Source: Halioglobus japonicus
GTDB lineage: Bacteria; Pseudomonadota; Gammaproteobacteria; Pseudomonadales; Halieaceae
NCBI GenBank assembly: GCA_902705825.1
Contig: CACSIL010000045.1
Location: forward strand, 249,224 to 313,223
DNA: 64,000 bases
Direction of reading: 5' to 3'
The notes under the pieces were generated by a model, which did no database searches, had not been told where the DNA came from, and saw nothing but the letters and a program-made list of their open reading frames with translations. The translations under genes were made by a program, and so were the position numbers. This document shows, piece after piece, positions 5,413 through 11,855 of the stretch. Within the stretch, counting starts at the first letter, position 1. Each line of letters opens with the position of its first letter.

Positions 5413-6084
5413 GTGAAGCAAACTCTGGCATTTGATGTGTACGGCACACTGATAGATACCCACGGTGTTATGCAGGCGTTGCGGGAGATCATCGGCGACA
5501 GGGCAGGGGCGTTTTCTCAGGCCTGGCGTGATAAACAGCTTGAATACTCTTTCCGTCGCGGCTTGATGGGGGCGTATCAGGATTTTGGTGTGTGTACTGC
5601 CCAGGCTCTGGACTATACCTGTGTTGCGCTTTCTGTGGTGCTGTCGGATGAACAAAAGGCATGCGTGCTGGATAGCTACAGTTCGTTACCAGCTTTTGCC
5701 GACGTAAAAGAAGGGCTTGATAGCCTGCGAGCGAAGGGCGCAAATCTGTTTGCGTTTTCCAATGGGCGCAGCGCAGCTGTCGAGATATTATTGGGCAACG
5801 CCGGAATCCTCGATTCCTTCGAGGGTGTTGTAAGCTGTGATGATGTGCAGACCTTCAAACCCAATCCTGTGGTATATGCGCATTTCATTGCCGAAACGGA
5901 CTCTGAACCTGAGAACACCTGGCTGATCTCAAGTAATCCTTTCGATGTCATTGGTGCGGTATCCTCCGGTTGGAAAGCGGCGTGGGTCCGCAGGTCCGAA
6001 GCGGCAATCTTCGACCCCTGGGAGTTTGCGCCAACGACCGTTGTCACGAACCTGGGGCAGCTCACTGAAAAGTTGATACCGTGA
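5413..6084 (+). CDS. HAD-family hydrolase, (S)-2-haloacid dehalogenase type
   Basis: A 223-residue HAD-superfamily hydrolase of the L-2-haloacid dehalogenase type II subgroup. The nucleophile Asp is in FDVYGTLIDTHG near residue 9. Motif II is FAFSNGRS, motif III is the Lys in FKPNPVVYAHF, and the final acidic/Asn motif is WLISSNPFDVIGA, where the haloacid dehalogenases carry SSNxxD. The start is a GTG at 5413 with a strong AGGAG site at 5402-5406. Family members hydrolyse 2-haloalkanoic acids to 2-hydroxy acids, although many act as phosphatases. It follows the luciferase-like gene by 150 bp and may share its transcript, ending at the terminator near 6414. Confidence 0.85.
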   Translation: MKQTLAFDVYGTLIDTHGVMQALREIIGDRAGAFSQAWRDKQLEYSFRRGLMGAYQDFGVCTAQALDYTCVALSVVLSDEQKACVLDSYSSLPAFADVKEGLDSLRAKGANLFAFSNGRSAAVEILLGNAGILDSFEGVVSCDDVQTFKPNPVVYAHFIAETDSEPENTWLISSNPFDVIGAVSSGWKAAWVRRSEAAIFDPWEFAPTTVVTNLGQLTEKLIP

Positions 6085-6443: not shown

Positions 6444-6629
6444 ACGATGAATCCTGATCAGCCGCGAAATCTTTGTACGAGTGCCCTGATCGTCCCCATT
6501 CTGTCATCGACCTCATTATGACTTATCACGCCTGGGATCCCCGAAAGAGGGATGTGTGCCTGGCGGCTTCCTATCCGGAATCAATCATGCGTTATTCACC
6601 CTGTGGACAATTGTGTGCCCAATTACTCT

Positions 6630-6657
6630 ATTTAACATAATATATATTATGCGCATA
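6630..6657 (-). other. dif: dif site: XerC/XerD chromosome-dimer resolution site
   Basis: Read on the minus strand this is TATGCGCATAA (XerC arm), TATATA (central six bases) and TTATGTTAAAT (XerD arm). E. coli dif has GGTGCGCATAA, TGTATA and TTATGTTAAAT. The XerD arm is identical (11/11), the XerC arm matches 9/11 and the centre 5/6, giving 25 of 28. The core CATAATATATATTATG is a perfect 16-bp palindrome. XerCD, activated by FtsK at the septum, resolve chromosome dimers at dif. The location in a gene-free gap, next to strand-biased genes, fits a terminus. The identification rests on reading the sequence, and the match is too long and too well placed to be chance. Confidence 0.92.
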
Positions 6658-6750
6658 TATGATAAGTCGGGCGAGGCTGTGGATATGTCGCGTGGATGCT
6701 GCATTTATAGGGTCTTTTACGGTTTTAGCGGGTTCTCGTGCCGATTTGGC

Positions 6751-6769
6751 CACTGACACATTGTCAGTG
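6751..6769. repeat. Short perfect inverted repeat
   Basis: CACTGACA and TGTCAGTG are perfect 8-bp arms separated by CAT, about 95 bp to the right of dif. There is no T tract on either side, so it is not an obvious terminator. It could be an operator or a binding site within the terminus region. Confidence 0.5.
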
Positions 6770-6879
6770 TGTCTCTGCAGTTCGTTACGTTCGGCCTGTT
6801 TGTTTGATGTTGAACACTGGCGGATTCCAGCGCAGCGCTTTCTGCGCGTCACACTCACCGAGTCACAAAACCGCTCTGA

Positions 6880-7014
6880 ACCTAACCCAGTGAAAAGAAA
6901 CTGACTGAGAAACTGAATGAACTCGATTGTCTTCGGCCGCACATCTTTCGCCTTGATGTACCGCGCTGTATTTGCACCGTCAGGTAATCTGGCGTGTACG
7001 ATAGCCTGCTGCGT
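6880..7014 (-). pseudogene. Possible decayed C-terminal gene fragment (LysR-tail-like)
   Basis: On the minus strand, from a stop near 7015, a frame reads ARLPDGANTARYIKAKDVR and then PKTIEFIQFLSQFL. This resembles the C-terminal helix of LysR-type regulators, where a basic proline-containing stretch precedes FIxFL. Nothing upstream in any frame looks like the rest of such a protein. The resemblance is weak and short. Confidence 0.25.
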
Positions 7015-7292
7015 TTATCTGGGTTTTTCGTCCAGGTCTTAGCTGCGTAGTCACTGATCTGTAAGTAACGGCTCGATGCGCGTTCGTCATGCATCTGTTC
7101 ACTTGTAGCGTGTTGGGATTGCTAAACGCGCACTCTCGCAAGGCGTTGAATTCTCGCTCAGGAAAGCATGTCTAACTGGTGTGTGATGGCTGGGTTCGGT
7201 TATGGCCGCCTGTAGCGATCTCCCGGCATATCTCAGTTCATGCGTAGATTTCACGCAACGGCACTGCTTGCCCAGCTCGCAACGGCGTTATC

Positions 7293-7320
7293 TACCTTAA
7301 ATAATATTATTATGTTAAAT
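7293..7320 (+). other. Second dif-like site (XerD arm, degenerate XerC side)
   Basis: Bases 7310-7320 are TTATGTTAAAT, identical to the XerD-binding arm of dif. The six bases before it are ATATTA, and the putative XerC arm TACCTTAAATA is poor; a five-base spacer would give ACCTTAAATAA, which keeps the ATAA end. It is in the opposite orientation to the dif site 650 bp to the left. It may be a remnant of a Xer-exploiting element, a cryptic half-site, or chance in an AT-rich patch. Confidence 0.4.
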
Positions 7321-7386
7321 ACTAGGTGTTCCGCACCCAGTGCAAGAAGTTGCAAGCCTCCGATAGCTAGGCAGTATATCCGTAAT

Positions 7387-7418
7387 ATCGACCTATCGAC
7401 CTATCGACCTATCGACAG
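7387..7418. repeat. Octamer tandem repeat ATCGACCT
   Basis: Three perfect copies of ATCGACCT are followed by a fourth ending in AG instead of CT. The array ends just beyond the stop codon of cusA. It is a simple slippage-prone repeat with no evident role. Confidence 0.8.
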
Positions 7419-7419
7419 C

Positions 7420-10400
7420 TCAGCTTTCAGACCTTCTCCTGCTTTCTCTCCACTGTAGTACCACTGTGTATATCACTGGTAAAACGAGTAAGTTAAGGAT
7501 CAGCACGGTAAACATCCCGCCAAGCATGGGCGCGACGATTCTTTGTGTAACGTCTGAGCCAGTCCCTGAACTCAGGGCTATGGGGACAAGCCCTGCTATG
7601 GTCGATACCGCTGTCATCAGCACTGCGCGTGCGCGTTTTGAGGTGGCTGATTGGGCGGCTGCTTTGATCGCTTGTTCGCTCAGCCTTTCACCGGGGGCTG
7701 CGCCCTCCTCTCGTATTGAGCGAATTTCATCATCGATAAAACTCAGTACCAGAACACCGATTTCCGCAGCCAGGCCTGCCAGCGCTATGAATCCGACCGC
7801 TACCGCAACTGACAGATTGAAACCGTTGAGGTAGATAAGCCAGACACCACCAATGAGTCCAAACGGAATTGATAACATCACTACCAGCGGTGCCACCGCG
7901 TTGCGAAAATGCAGGTACAACAGTAGGAAGATAACGAACAATGTCGCAGGAGCCACTATCTGCAATCGTGCTGCAGCGCGTTCCATATGTTCGAACTGCC
8001 CGGACCACCGTACGGTATAACCGACAGGTAACTCTACCTCACGGGAAATAACTTCTTTGGCTCGCGCCACATAGCCGCCTATGTCGGAGGTGGATATGTC
8101 GACGTATATCCAGGCGTTGGGTCGCGCATTCTCCGATTTGATCATAGGCGCTCCCCGTGTGTATTCGATGTCGGCGATCATTGCCAGCGCGACAGGTGAA
8201 CCGTTAGGGGTTGGAATAAGGATTCTGTCCAGCGCCTCGCGGTCCGACCGTAACGCTCTGGGCAGGCGGATATTCAGCGGATAGCGCTCAGTACCCTGCA
8301 CGACTTCTGTGACATTCATGCCGCCGATGGCGCTCATTATCACATCCTGTACCTGCCCTACCGTCAGGCCATAACGGGCGGCGGACTCACGTTGAATATT
8401 GATATCAAGATAGTAGCCGCCGGCTGATCTGTCGGCGAATGCGGAGAGTGTCTGCGGAAGCGTGTTAAGGGCCTGCTCTATATTTCCGGCGATAGCCTGT
8501 AAGGTTTCCAGGTTGGGGCCAGACACCTTGATACCCACCGGGGTTTTAATGCCTGTCGACAGCATATCGATACGTGTCTTGATCGGCATCGTCCAGGCAT
8601 TGCTCAAACCGGGAAACTGAATAGCCGCATCCATTTCATTCATCAGTTCACGCGTCGTCTTGCCCGGGTCGGGCCACTGCACTCTCGGCTTGAGTCTCAC
8701 CGTAGTCTCAAGCATTGAAAGCGGCGCTGGATCTGTCGCCGTATCCGCTCGCCCTGCCTTGCCAAATACGGATTGAACCTCCGGGAATGTGGCCAGAATG
8801 CGATCGGTTTGTTGCATCAGTTCCTTTGCCTTGGTGATCGAAATACCGGGCAAGGTGGTTGGCATATAGAGAATATCGCCTTCATCCAGCGGCGGCATGA
8901 ATTCGCTGCCGAGCTTGCTATAGGGGTAGGCAGTCACCAACACCAACAGCACCGCGCTCACGATGGTCAGGCCTCTGAAACGCATGAGAACAGCGAGTAC
9001 CGGTGTGTGAATCTTACGTATGACACGGCTGATGGGGTTTTTGTCCTCTGATATGATCCTGCCGCGCAGGAAGTACCCCATCAACACTGGTACCAGCGTA
9101 ATAGAGAGAATTGCGGCGGCGGCCATGGAGTATGTTTTGGTAAAAGCCAGCGGGCTGAACAGTCGGCCTTCCTGGGACTGGAGCGTGAATATCGGCACAA
9201 AGGAAACCGTAATCACCAGTAGCGAGAAAAACAGTGCCGGTCCCACTTGTCGGCAGGCCAGTTCGATGGCTTTCCAGCGTTCTGTGGTGCTCAGTTCTCG
9301 TCCTTTCGCTGCGGTAGCCTTGGCCAACTGCTTGTGTCCGTTCTCAATCATTACGATGGCACCATCTACCATGGTACCTATCGCGATAGCGATGCCACCG
9401 AGCGACATGATATTCGCGTTCAGGCCCTGGATACGCATCACGATAAACGCAAGCAGGATGCCCAGGGGTAAGGTGATGATTGCGACAAAGGCCGAGCGAG
9501 CATGCAGTAGAAACAGGATTACTACGAGGCTGACGATCAGCAGTTCCTCCATCAGCGAAGTGCCCAGGCTGGCCGATGCTCTTTCTATCAGGTCACCGCG
9601 ATCGTATACCGTTACGATTTCAATGCCTTCTGGTAAGCCGTGTTTGAGTTCTTCTAATTTTGCACGAACCGCTTTGATCGTCGTCAGGGCGTTTTCGCCA
9701 AACCGCATAATGACAATACCGCCGGCTACCTCGCCTTCGCCGTTGAGGTCGACCAGTCCGCGCCGCAGTTCCGGGCCGGTCTGAACGTGGGCTATGTCCG
9801 CGATACGCACTGGCGTGCCGAATCCATCATCACCCACCGGGATACTTTCAATATCGTTTATCGATTGGATATACCCGGGTGCTCTGACCATGTATTCCGT
9901 TTCAGCCATCTCTATCAACCGGCCGCCGACATCGTTGTTGGATTGCTGTACTGCTTTCTTCACCTGGTCCAATGTAATGTTGTAGTGCAGCAGCGCATTA
10001 GGGTCGATTTCGATCTGGTATTGACGGACATAGCCACCGACTGAAGCCACTTCGGCAACGCCGGGAACGGTCTGTAGCGGGTAGCGTAAAAACCAGTCCT
10101 GCAGGGAACGAAGATCGGCGAGATCGTGCTGCCCGGTTCTATCTACCAACGCGTACTCAAATATCCAGCCGACCCCCGTGGCATCGGGGCCGAGTGTGGG
10201 TGTAACACCGGCGGGGAGTCGGCTACTGGCGGCGTTAAGTGCTTCCAGTACCCGTGAGCGCGCCCAGTACATGTCCACATCATCCTCAAAAATGACATAC
10301 ACAAAGGACAGCCCAAAAAAGGAGTACCCGCGCACCACCTTGGTATGGGGCACCGACAGCATGGCCGTCGTCAATGGGTAGGTTACCTGGTCTTCCACTA

Positions 10401-10578
10401 CCTGGGGGGACTGACCAGGATGCTTCGCCAGTACAATCACCTGGACGTCCGATAAATCGGGAATCGCATCCAGTGGTGTACTAATGTAGGCAAAAACACC
10501 GACAATTGCGAGGATCACTGCCGCCAGCAGAACAAGCAACCGTTCTTTTACAGAGGCGCTGATGATAGCCCTGATCAT
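7420..10578 (-). CDS. cusA: CusA/CzcA-type heavy-metal RND efflux pump
   Basis: A 1052-residue inner-membrane RND transporter of the heavy-metal (HME) subfamily. The full length and twelve-helix pattern are typical. The N-terminus contains TPLDAIPDLSDVQVIV, diagnostic for the HME group, and PGQSPQVVEDQVTYPL. Methionines in SMLETTVRLKP and GAPMIKSENARP align with the E. coli CusA copper/silver-binding Met residues, and RIDMLSTGIKTPVGIKVSG is also CusA-like. That points to Cu(I)/Ag(I) rather than Zn/Co/Cd. The protein uses the proton gradient to drive metal out through CusB and CusC. Its ATG overlaps the cusB stop by four bases (ATGA), so the two are translationally coupled. Confidence 0.93.
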   Translation of the reverse strand: MIRAIISASVKERLLVLLAAVILAIVGVFAYISTPLDAIPDLSDVQVIVLAKHPGQSPQVVEDQVTYPLTTAMLSVPHTKVVRGYSFFGLSFVYVIFEDDVDMYWARSRVLEALNAASSRLPAGVTPTLGPDATGVGWIFEYALVDRTGQHDLADLRSLQDWFLRYPLQTVPGVAEVASVGGYVRQYQIEIDPNALLHYNITLDQVKKAVQQSNNDVGGRLIEMAETEYMVRAPGYIQSINDIESIPVGDDGFGTPVRIADIAHVQTGPELRRGLVDLNGEGEVAGGIVIMRFGENALTTIKAVRAKLEELKHGLPEGIEIVTVYDRGDLIERASASLGTSLMEELLIVSLVVILFLLHARSAFVAIITLPLGILLAFIVMRIQGLNANIMSLGGIAIAIGTMVDGAIVMIENGHKQLAKATAAKGRELSTTERWKAIELACRQVGPALFFSLLVITVSFVPIFTLQSQEGRLFSPLAFTKTYSMAAAAILSITLVPVLMGYFLRGRIISEDKNPISRVIRKIHTPVLAVLMRFRGLTIVSAVLLVLVTAYPYSKLGSEFMPPLDEGDILYMPTTLPGISITKAKELMQQTDRILATFPEVQSVFGKAGRADTATDPAPLSMLETTVRLKPRVQWPDPGKTTRELMNEMDAAIQFPGLSNAWTMPIKTRIDMLSTGIKTPVGIKVSGPNLETLQAIAGNIEQALNTLPQTLSAFADRSAGGYYLDINIQRESAARYGLTVGQVQDVIMSAIGGMNVTEVVQGTERYPLNIRLPRALRSDREALDRILIPTPNGSPVALAMIADIEYTRGAPMIKSENARPNAWIYVDISTSDIGGYVARAKEVISREVELPVGYTVRWSGQFEHMERAAARLQIVAPATLFVIFLLLYLHFRNAVAPLVVMLSIPFGLIGGVWLIYLNGFNLSVAVAVGFIALAGLAAEIGVLVLSFIDDEIRSIREEGAAPGERLSEQAIKAAAQSATSKRARAVLMTAVSTIAGLVPIALSSGTGSDVTQRIVAPMLGGMFTVLILNLLVLPVIYTVVLQWRESRRRSES

Positions 10579-11855
10579 CTGACGCCCTCCCCTGTTTGAT
10601 CGGCCTGTTGAGTTTTACCACTGACCATTTTCGCTGTGGCTTCCTGCAATTTTGATTCGGAATCAATCAGGAACTGCGCCGATACCACAACACGCTCTCC
10701 CACCTCTATGCCCTGAAGAACAGCCACATCCCCCTCTGACTCGATACCCAGGGTGACGCGTCGCGGTTCGAATGTGCCTGATTCAGTTGCTACAAAAATC
10801 TGATCAAAGCTGCCTGAGCGTACGACCGCTTCTGTCGGCACTACCAGTTCCGTTCTTTCCTGTGAGTAGATGCGTACTTCTACAAAGGTTTCAGGCCGCA
10901 GGAGTAGATCGGTGTTATCAAACTCCATACGAATTTGTGTGGACCGCGTTGTCGCTTCTGAATACGGGTAGATATAGGCTACAGTGCCCTTGAGGACTTC
11001 TCCTGGCAGGCTCTTGAGCGAGAGTTCCACCGCATCGCCCTCCTTCACCCAGGGTAACTCGTACTCGTAAATATCCGCATAGACCCAGACTGTGCGGAGA
11101 TCCACAATCTCGAAGAGCTCTGTTTGTGGTGTTACATACTCGCCCTGCCGCGCGCCGATACGGGCGACAATGCCCGTCGCGGGGGCTTGAATATGCAAGG
11201 TTTCCCGAATGACATGTGTCTCTTTGAGTTCCTTTATCTGGTGCGGTGGCACATCCAGTAGTGTCAGCCTTGCGTGGGAGCTCTCAACGAGTGACGTCGC
11301 GCCGCGGCGAATATCTGCAAATGGACTGTCCTTTAATGTTGTGTAGTTGTTGAGCGCGAGCAAATATTCCTGCTGTGTGCTAAGCAGCTGTGGTGAATAT
11401 ATATCCAGCAGTATTTCATCGCGGTCAACGTGCTGCCCTGTTTTATCGACACGTAGATTGCGTATCCAGCCCTCAACTTTGGGGTGCAGCGTGACTACCT
11501 TATCTTCTGCATAGTCAACACGACCGGCTGCACGAATTGTGCGCGATATAGTGCGACGCTCGGCTGTAGTAGTGCGCAAACCAATATTGTTTTGCACCAC
11601 CGGATTAATACTGACAGCGCCTTTTTGATGCCCCTGCTCCTGTTCGTAAACGGGAATATAGTCCATTCCCATGGAATCGGTGGTAGGGACAGGCGATGTC
11701 ACTGCGGGGTTCATAGGGTTTCTGTAAAACAGCGGTTGGCGTTCAGCAGGTGTGGCTGATTGCGCTGCTTTGTCTTGCATATTTGTCACAAAATGTCCGA
11801 CCCAAACACCGAAAGCCAGACAAAAAATACCGACCGCTACGAGTCGCTTATTCAT
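10575..11855 (-). CDS. cusB: CusB-type periplasmic membrane-fusion adaptor
   Basis: A 426-residue periplasmic adaptor of the metal RND efflux systems, anchored by an N-terminal hydrophobic segment (GIFCLAFGVWVGHFVTNM). Residues about 43-70 form a small heavy-metal-binding domain, YRNPMNPAVTSPVPTTDSMG followed by MDYIPVYE, as in CusB proteins with an N-terminal metal-binding module. The rest has the barrel-sandwich and helical-hairpin pattern (HPKVEGWIRNLRVDKTGQHV, IYSPQLLSTQQEYLLALNNY). It would pass Cu(I)/Ag(I) to CusA and bridge to CusC. The gene starts eight bases inside the end of cusC and overlaps cusA by four, so the three are one operon. Confidence 0.92.
   Translation of the reverse strand: MNKRLVAVGIFCLAFGVWVGHFVTNMQDKAAQSATPAERQPLFYRNPMNPAVTSPVPTTDSMGMDYIPVYEQEQGHQKGAVSINPVVQNNIGLRTTTAERRTISRTIRAAGRVDYAEDKVVTLHPKVEGWIRNLRVDKTGQHVDRDEILLDIYSPQLLSTQQEYLLALNNYTTLKDSPFADIRRGATSLVESSHARLTLLDVPPHQIKELKETHVIRETLHIQAPATGIVARIGARQGEYVTPQTELFEIVDLRTVWVYADIYEYELPWVKEGDAVELSLKSLPGEVLKGTVAYIYPYSEATTRSTQIRMEFDNTDLLLRPETFVEVRIYSQERTELVVPTEAVVRSGSFDQIFVATESGTFEPRRVTLGIESEGDVAVLQGIEVGERVVVSAQFLIDSESKLQEATAKMVSGKTQQADQTGEGVR

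Follow-up and report, generated by a model that had tools for sequence, protein, structure and literature searches.

An inverted companion of the dif site in part of the Halieaceae, a putative XerD docking site at the chromosome terminus

Once replicated, bacterial chromosomes are disentangled and separated at the dif site, and XerD is known chiefly as a recombinase acting there. The locus described here, a stretch of 64,000 nucleotides from Halioglobus japonicus (hereafter, the window), carries one sequence resembling dif and, nearby, a second XerD arm in the opposite orientation. Two questions are raised by this arrangement: whether the first sequence is the chromosomal dif, and what role, if any, the second one may have.

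The dif-like sequence occupies positions 6630-6657 and reads TATGCGCATAATATATATTATGTTAAAT on the minus strand. Its 28 bp comprise an XerD arm (6630-6640), a central TATATA (6641-6646) and an XerC arm (6647-6657), that is, two 11-bp arms around a 6-bp centre, with the XerD arm conserved. As the first-pass annotation had proposed, 25 of the 28 bases were identical to E. coli dif, the mismatches falling at bases 1, 2 and 13 and the XerD arm being identical. The 26-base dif core, with one base left open, was matched once in the window and never in 100 dinucleotide shuffles (≤3 mismatches). At the same tolerance, a scan for other dif sites returned no second one in the assembly (5,051,014 bases, 53 contigs, 93% complete), where the only match was the window site, at 255,853-255,880 of the 413,450-bp contig C45. 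The comparison with related genomes agreed with a single-copy site shared among relatives, since 41 of the 57 genomes analyzed, its own included, had exactly one match each and 16 had none. The site had also been placed, correctly, in a gap between genes; this gap is bordered by a haloacid-dehalogenase-type gene ending at 6084 and a CusA/CzcA-type efflux gene (7420-10578, typed with NCBIfam), and putative ORFs of 81-104 amino acids are listed inside it.

The chromosome-terminus reading of the annotation was confirmed on contig C45. The cumulative GC skew of this contig climbed up to the 1-kb bin that ends at 255,000, no more than 1 kb from dif, and then dropped, the skew being +0.048 to the left of dif and -0.042 to the right. 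The KOPS motif GGGNAGGG converged on dif from both sides, with 45 forward and 5 reverse copies on the left and 1 forward and 34 reverse copies on the right, and GGGCAGGG was the most polarised 8-mer of the contig (by our own score, among 8-mers with at least 12 counts). The closest KOPS pointing to dif were 1.1 kb away on the left and 3.9 kb away on the right, and one of the five wrongly oriented copies on the left was 4.4 kb from dif. The strand bias that had been attributed to the terminus also fitted this position, as mechanically chosen ORFs to the right of dif covered 37.7 kb on the minus (leading) strand versus 16.0 kb on the plus strand. The terminus had been invoked as well for a lack of rRNA; no tRNA was found in the window and no Rfam match reached gathering scores, which agrees with a terminus, but a terminus does not explain such an absence.

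Hence, the identification of 6630-6657 as the chromosomal dif for dimer resolution by XerC/XerD is well supported by sequence and context, and chromosome dimers would be resolved there by both proteins once activated by KOPS-guided FtsK. The site is like proteobacterial dif in its arms, hexamer centre, position at the skew peak, KOPS polarity and single copy. Its identity and terminus position are correct and in themselves ordinary. The site differs from the proteobacterial pattern by DnaA-box-like flanks, clearest in relatives, and by a companion site.

This companion, which the first-pass annotation did not mention, was recognised by a second XerD arm on the plus strand at C45:256533-256543 (7310-7320 of the window). 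The arm, TTATGTTAAAT, has exactly two copies in the genome, one in dif and the other in the companion, named here dif2 (7292-7321, plus strand), where it is intact and preceded by AATAA (7300-7304) and five intervening bases. The new site lies 680 bp from dif on the XerC side of the latter, inverted, and its XerD arm faces away from dif. The string common to both sites is 14 bp long, inverted, with 665 bp between the arms, and from base composition about 1.4e-5 copies of this 14-mer would be expected in the 1.5 kb around it. Contig C45 has no other exact copy of the XerD arm; the remaining XerD-like sites of its 413 kb were two 11-mers with one mismatch, 200 and 245 kb off, and two 13-mers with two mismatches, 49 and 92 kb off. 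The 6-bp centre and the XerC arm of a chromosomal dif are missing from dif2, with the exception of the arm in genome G007. On its other side, dif2 is directly adjoined by the CusA/CzcA-type efflux pump gene and a periplasmic adaptor gene (7420-11855), and a short tandem repeat with the 8-bp unit CGACCTAT is located just past it (7386-7416).

The distribution of dif2 was surveyed at 70 dif loci whose XerC-side flank measured 900 bp or more, all of them from Halieaceae save one unassigned MAG; two loci, one of them this MAG, came from named records outside the genome panel. An inverted XerD 13-mer (≤1 mismatch) was present within 2 kb on the XerC side at 18 of the 70 loci (14 exact), and the control classes gave 0 (direct, XerC side), 0 (inverted, XerD side) and 1 (direct, XerD side). 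Loci L180, L192, L078, L090 and L095 had been left out for having no dif, as had G077, with no dif on its contig, and G006, G026, G071 and the dif contig of G089 fell outside the 70 for having less than 900 bp of XerC-side flank. Although outside the survey, G006 does carry dif2 in its 832 bp of flank, and the dif contig of G099, also outside, has no inverted arm, so that counting it would give 18 of 71. Only one (G024) of the 26 family genomes lacking the exact 13-mer entered the survey. Within the 70, G007 and G073, whose companions lie beyond 2 kb, and G020, with two mismatches, were scored as negative. The cases known beyond the 18 are G006, G073 (12.6 kb), G007 (5.4 kb from dif, a variant with a full XerC arm), G020, and G001 and G077, in which dif2 is on a contig without dif.

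Furthermore, the exact XerD 13-mer was found in 74 of 100 family genomes and formed an inverted pair on one contig in 15 of them, at distances of 536, 598, 623, 660, 667, 675, 678, 699, 706, 765, 805, 845, 851, 1728 and 12,653 bp; the second arm was on the XerC side of dif in all 15. In a sample of the order (293 genomes, 14 of the family), exact inverted close pairs were seen in Halieaceae only, among the matches listed; among these same matches, five genomes outside the family had the 13-mer on both strands, and in the four examined (all except G166) the two copies were on different contigs. In part of the Halieaceae, dif is thus accompanied by dif2, usually 0.4-0.9 kb off on the XerC side. 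The 18 loci do not represent independent events, because of shared ancestry. In addition, 52 of the 70 loci had no dif2 within 2 kb, including every one of the seven sufficiently long Haliea-type (g43) loci; the single g43 genome examined nevertheless has SMC, and dif2 is therefore dispensable. A degenerate dif2 in apparent non-carriers was considered and rejected, as the joint score for arm and palindrome (see below) was 22-24 in three carriers and at most 18 in the 16 non-carriers scanned.

Twenty sites aligned on the XerD arm gave the consensus AATAA-nnn-TATTATGTTAAATA, with GCGCA ahead in several. The AATAA columns, which had not been used in the selection, were each conserved in 18-19 of the 20 sites, and the next three bases varied. 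Ten of the 13 columns of the XerD 13-mer were invariant, a uniformity that is partly built in because the sites were chosen by this 13-mer (≤1 mismatch). Five bases, three of them variable, separate AATAA from the arm in dif2, compared with six in dif, and the XerC outer half is not conserved, a good XerC arm being mostly absent.

A palindrome was also found near dif2. In the window it reads TGCAAGAAGTTGCA (7341-7354) and lies 33 bases after the start (7308) of the XerD 13-mer. Its general form, TGCAAnnnnTTGCA, was matched at 9 or 10 of its 10 positions at 21 of 24 sites, with offsets from the 13-mer start of +31 to +34 (13 sites), -50/-51 (5 sites) and -59/-61 (3 sites); the chance expectation from contig frequencies was about 0.006 per site, for a motif noticed on the very sites scored. 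The exceptions scored 8 (G007), 7 (G015) and 6 (G020), the dif2 of G015 having neither AATAA nor palindrome and that of G020 having two mismatches and no palindrome. Within genus g11 the palindrome occurs on either side of dif2, and the shift from -51 to +33 amounts to 84 bp, or about eight helical turns; the -59 cases fit this phasing poorly. At dif itself the palindrome was absent in all seven loci looked at. It was not enriched genome-wide either, with 20 places versus 19 for the reversed control, and a general regulon was rejected on this count and for the lack of a common theme by eye in 15 loci contexts. The spacing of its half-sites resembles that of an ARG box. ArgR was tried as the owner of the palindrome and rejected, since ArgR (PF02863) was found in 0 of 17 genomes and the control rang in 8 of 14.

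The DNA around these elements proved far less constant. When the 761 bp following dif were compared with 56 other genomes, matches were obtained in three, over 57-103 bp near dif, where the beginning of the dif-dif2 interval (6658-7291) was 76-79% alike; the rest of the interval was without match there. Neither a gene nor an RNA family was assigned to this interval. Blastn among 20 intervals (190 pairs) connected 18 of the 37 pairs from one genus and 44 of the 153 pairs from different genera; among the 25 longest hits listed, those across genera measured 32-66 bp and were located mostly at dif2, next to dif or within a single internal block. The right-hand neighbour of dif2 is a CusA-type gene in the window (NCBIfam) and in G008 (by eye), with other genes elsewhere, such as a relative of calcium/sodium antiporters in G007. 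The pair and its orientation are kept despite the changed neighbour genes and the 12.6-kb interval of G073, and AATAA, arm and palindrome occur together at set offsets under six genus labels and in one unassigned record. Since a number of relatives share dif2 while the surrounding DNA differs, these data suggested that dif2 serves a separate function at the terminus.

Some intervals had features of their own. That of G073 (L070, 6824-18218) contains, within about 12 kb, ORFs of 1014 and 971 amino acids, similar by eye to Tn3-type transposases, and an integrase-like ORF. In L069 and L071 (G072 and G074), most of the interval is filled by a plus-strand ORF of 211-215 amino acids, about 40% identical between them and without match to the ORFs of other loci at E 0.01. 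A hairpin-like block resembling GCGCTCCTACGCGCATAGTTT (0-5 mismatches) recurred, always in one orientation, 337-426 bp ahead of dif2 in five intervals from three genera (at +365 from dif in L083, +203 in L082, +379 in L072, +295 in L086 and +285 in L080); it was not found in the window and is not general among intervals.

As to the nature of this function, we see an even chance that dif2 is a selected, non-recombining docking site for XerD, which together with dif would gate the terminus on both sides. Because dif2 is inverted relative to dif, the XerD arms point outward on both flanks of the terminus, and the first thing that a motor encounters, on whichever replichore it arrives, would be an XerD. 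XerD would bind dif2 without XerC and without recombination, helped by a putative factor on the TGCAAnnnnTTGCA palindrome, and would act on the motor coming from the dif2 side, stopping FtsK and/or unloading SMC. FtsK reportedly stops at XerCD-dif (work of Graham et al.), and XerD-binding sites are said to unload SMC in Bacillus subtilis (work of Karaboja et al. in 2021). An XerD-only SMC-unloading site is defined by an intact XerD half without an XerC half near the terminus, and dif2 has by its sequence this composition; speaking against such a site, the full XerC arm of the G007 companion would be needless. B. subtilis has several XerD sites, whereas no further exact arm exists on the window contig.

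Three reports (PMC12322038, PMC10945525, PMC8242196) describe how XerD unloads SMC at the XerD sites of B. subtilis, and the last of them states that no such unloading had been demonstrated in E. coli as of 2021. Like these sites, dif2 has an XerD arm close to the terminus that is in most cases not accompanied by a proper XerC half. It differs in belonging to a gammaproteobacterium and in being a single companion with a fixed inverted geometry and an adjacent palindrome. The host is also alike, with SMC present in the window genome (NCBIfam equivalog hit) and MatP not found. Among 17 genomes, 14 of them dif2 carriers, SMC was detected in 16, the sole miss (G122) being a carrier, and the MatP of E. 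coli in none, the window genome included. The SMC of 15 other genomes, 12 of them carriers, was 64-90% identical to that of the window, so the depth of the dif2 carriers is considerable.

A less favoured possibility, of low yet appreciable probability, is that dif2 is the functionless relic of a Xer-using mobile unit, either what is left of a C-type dif module or the site at which an element had integrated. The geometry of dif and dif2, two inverse sites with their XerC sides inside, equals that of the C modules of Acinetobacter as described in PMC13141974 and PMC12907356; dif is a known insertion target (PMC2731167), direct-orientation dif-like sites or XerD 13-mers occur nearby in others of the order (G087, G042, G362), and the inverted site of G007 is almost complete. 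Nevertheless, those modules consist of two complete, recombination-competent inverse sites, whereas dif2 fits in orientation only, as its centre has five bases and its XerC arm is in most cases poor, and the pair is spread over many species of one family with an interval mostly without recognised cargo. A Xer-integrated element would have direct-repeat att sites and element genes, and here the sites are inverted and no phage or plasmid genes were recognised, in the window interval (ORFs, Rfam) or in any other except that of G073 (by eye and blastp). Moreover, a relic would be expected to erode like the DNA around it, yet AATAA, arm and palindrome are found as a set in intervals that for the most part do not align. 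The site pattern was matched by nine viral contigs, all AT-rich and none with a dif-like site in the stretch examined, and arm plus right-hand palindrome by none, for which reason a phage origin of dif2 was rejected. As for the direct-orientation pairs, L105 (G087, 4.5 kb on the XerD side), G042:C81 and G362:C182 have their dif-like sites or XerD 13-mers 4.5-12.9 kb apart and are candidate Xer-integrated elements. Separately, in L089 (G013) a tandem pair of XerD-like arms, spaced 18 bp and each with one mismatch to the 13-mer, lies in dif orientation on the XerD side, 1517 and 1535 bp from dif.

It is unlikely, more so than a relic, that a different terminus protein binds the conserved unit, chiefly at the palindrome, and that this protein or a Xer paralogue uses the XerD-like arm. 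The palindrome is indeed nearly as regular as the arm, can stand on either side in g11 at a distance close to whole helical turns and, as noted, is not enriched genome-wide; yet the 13-14 bases shared with the XerD side of dif can hardly be accounted for if XerD is not involved, and ArgR, one candidate from Xer biology, was not found in any of the 17 genomes. This last result also separates dif2 from the cer site of ColE1, which, according to PMC5357621, has ArgR/PepA accessory sites: a palindromic accessory site at a set distance from a Xer half-site is common to both, but dif2 is inverted and chromosomal and is not a plasmid resolution site. Recombination between dif and dif2, inverting the interval as a switch, would be favoured by inverted sites with identical XerD arms; it is very improbable, because the centre of dif2 is 5 bp long versus six in dif, with variable bases beside the XerC half, and the flank abutting dif was seen by eye at none of 21 dif2 flanks. 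The centre is a hexamer in all proteobacterial genomes analysed in PMC2731167. Chance or shared ancestry alone deserves just as little credence: all cases seen fall in one family and so are not independent, but the expectation for the window pair, the nearly empty control classes and the gap in joint scores between carriers and non-carriers stand against it.

Among the literature matches listed, none, as judged by their titles and the starts of their abstracts, described a second, inverted XerD site or DnaA boxes at dif, and a term search in PMC3025954 gave no match. If dif2 is indeed a conserved extra half-site for XerD, it would become testable whether XerD unloads SMC or arrests FtsK beyond the Firmicutes as well, here in a gammaproteobacterial lineage with SMC and no detectable MatP, with related genomes carrying or lacking dif2 as natural controls. 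A docking site of this kind would show a one-sided recombination site turned into a two-sided terminus marker.

Additionally, the flanks of dif were analyzed. In the window, the DnaA-box-like sequence TTGTCCACA (6602-6610, minus strand) lies on the XerD side of dif, where in relatives it is part of a conserved CTGTGGATAACTGTGTG-like stretch, and a degenerate box at 6658-6666 on the XerC side is the counterpart of TGTGGATAA. In many relatives, TGTGGATAA follows dif on the XerC side, abutting it in a number of them, and CTGTGGATAACTGTGTG or related forms are found on the XerD side. The reading of these flanks as DnaA boxes presumes the box consensus. In a collection of 84,980 species, dif followed by TGTGGAT occurred in 27 stretches, 25 from Halieaceae, one from Marinobacter and one from an unassigned MAG. 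By our own box pattern, dif2 was present at eight of the nine loci with both boxes versus four of the 39 with neither. From these sequences we would tentatively propose, with more doubt than belief, that many Halieaceae have a composite terminus gate, made of a DnaA-box-flanked dif, a recombination-dead outward XerD site and a palindromic co-factor site, which would halt FtsK or unload SMC with Xer protein at work on either flank, may have arisen where MatP is absent, and in which DnaA would tie the terminus to initiation. If true, it would be a Gram-negative counterpart of XerD-dependent SMC unloading. The loci with DnaA-box-like sequences beside dif include L069, L072, L075, L104 and L106, and on the XerD side TGTGCATAA is the form found in Haliea-type genomes.
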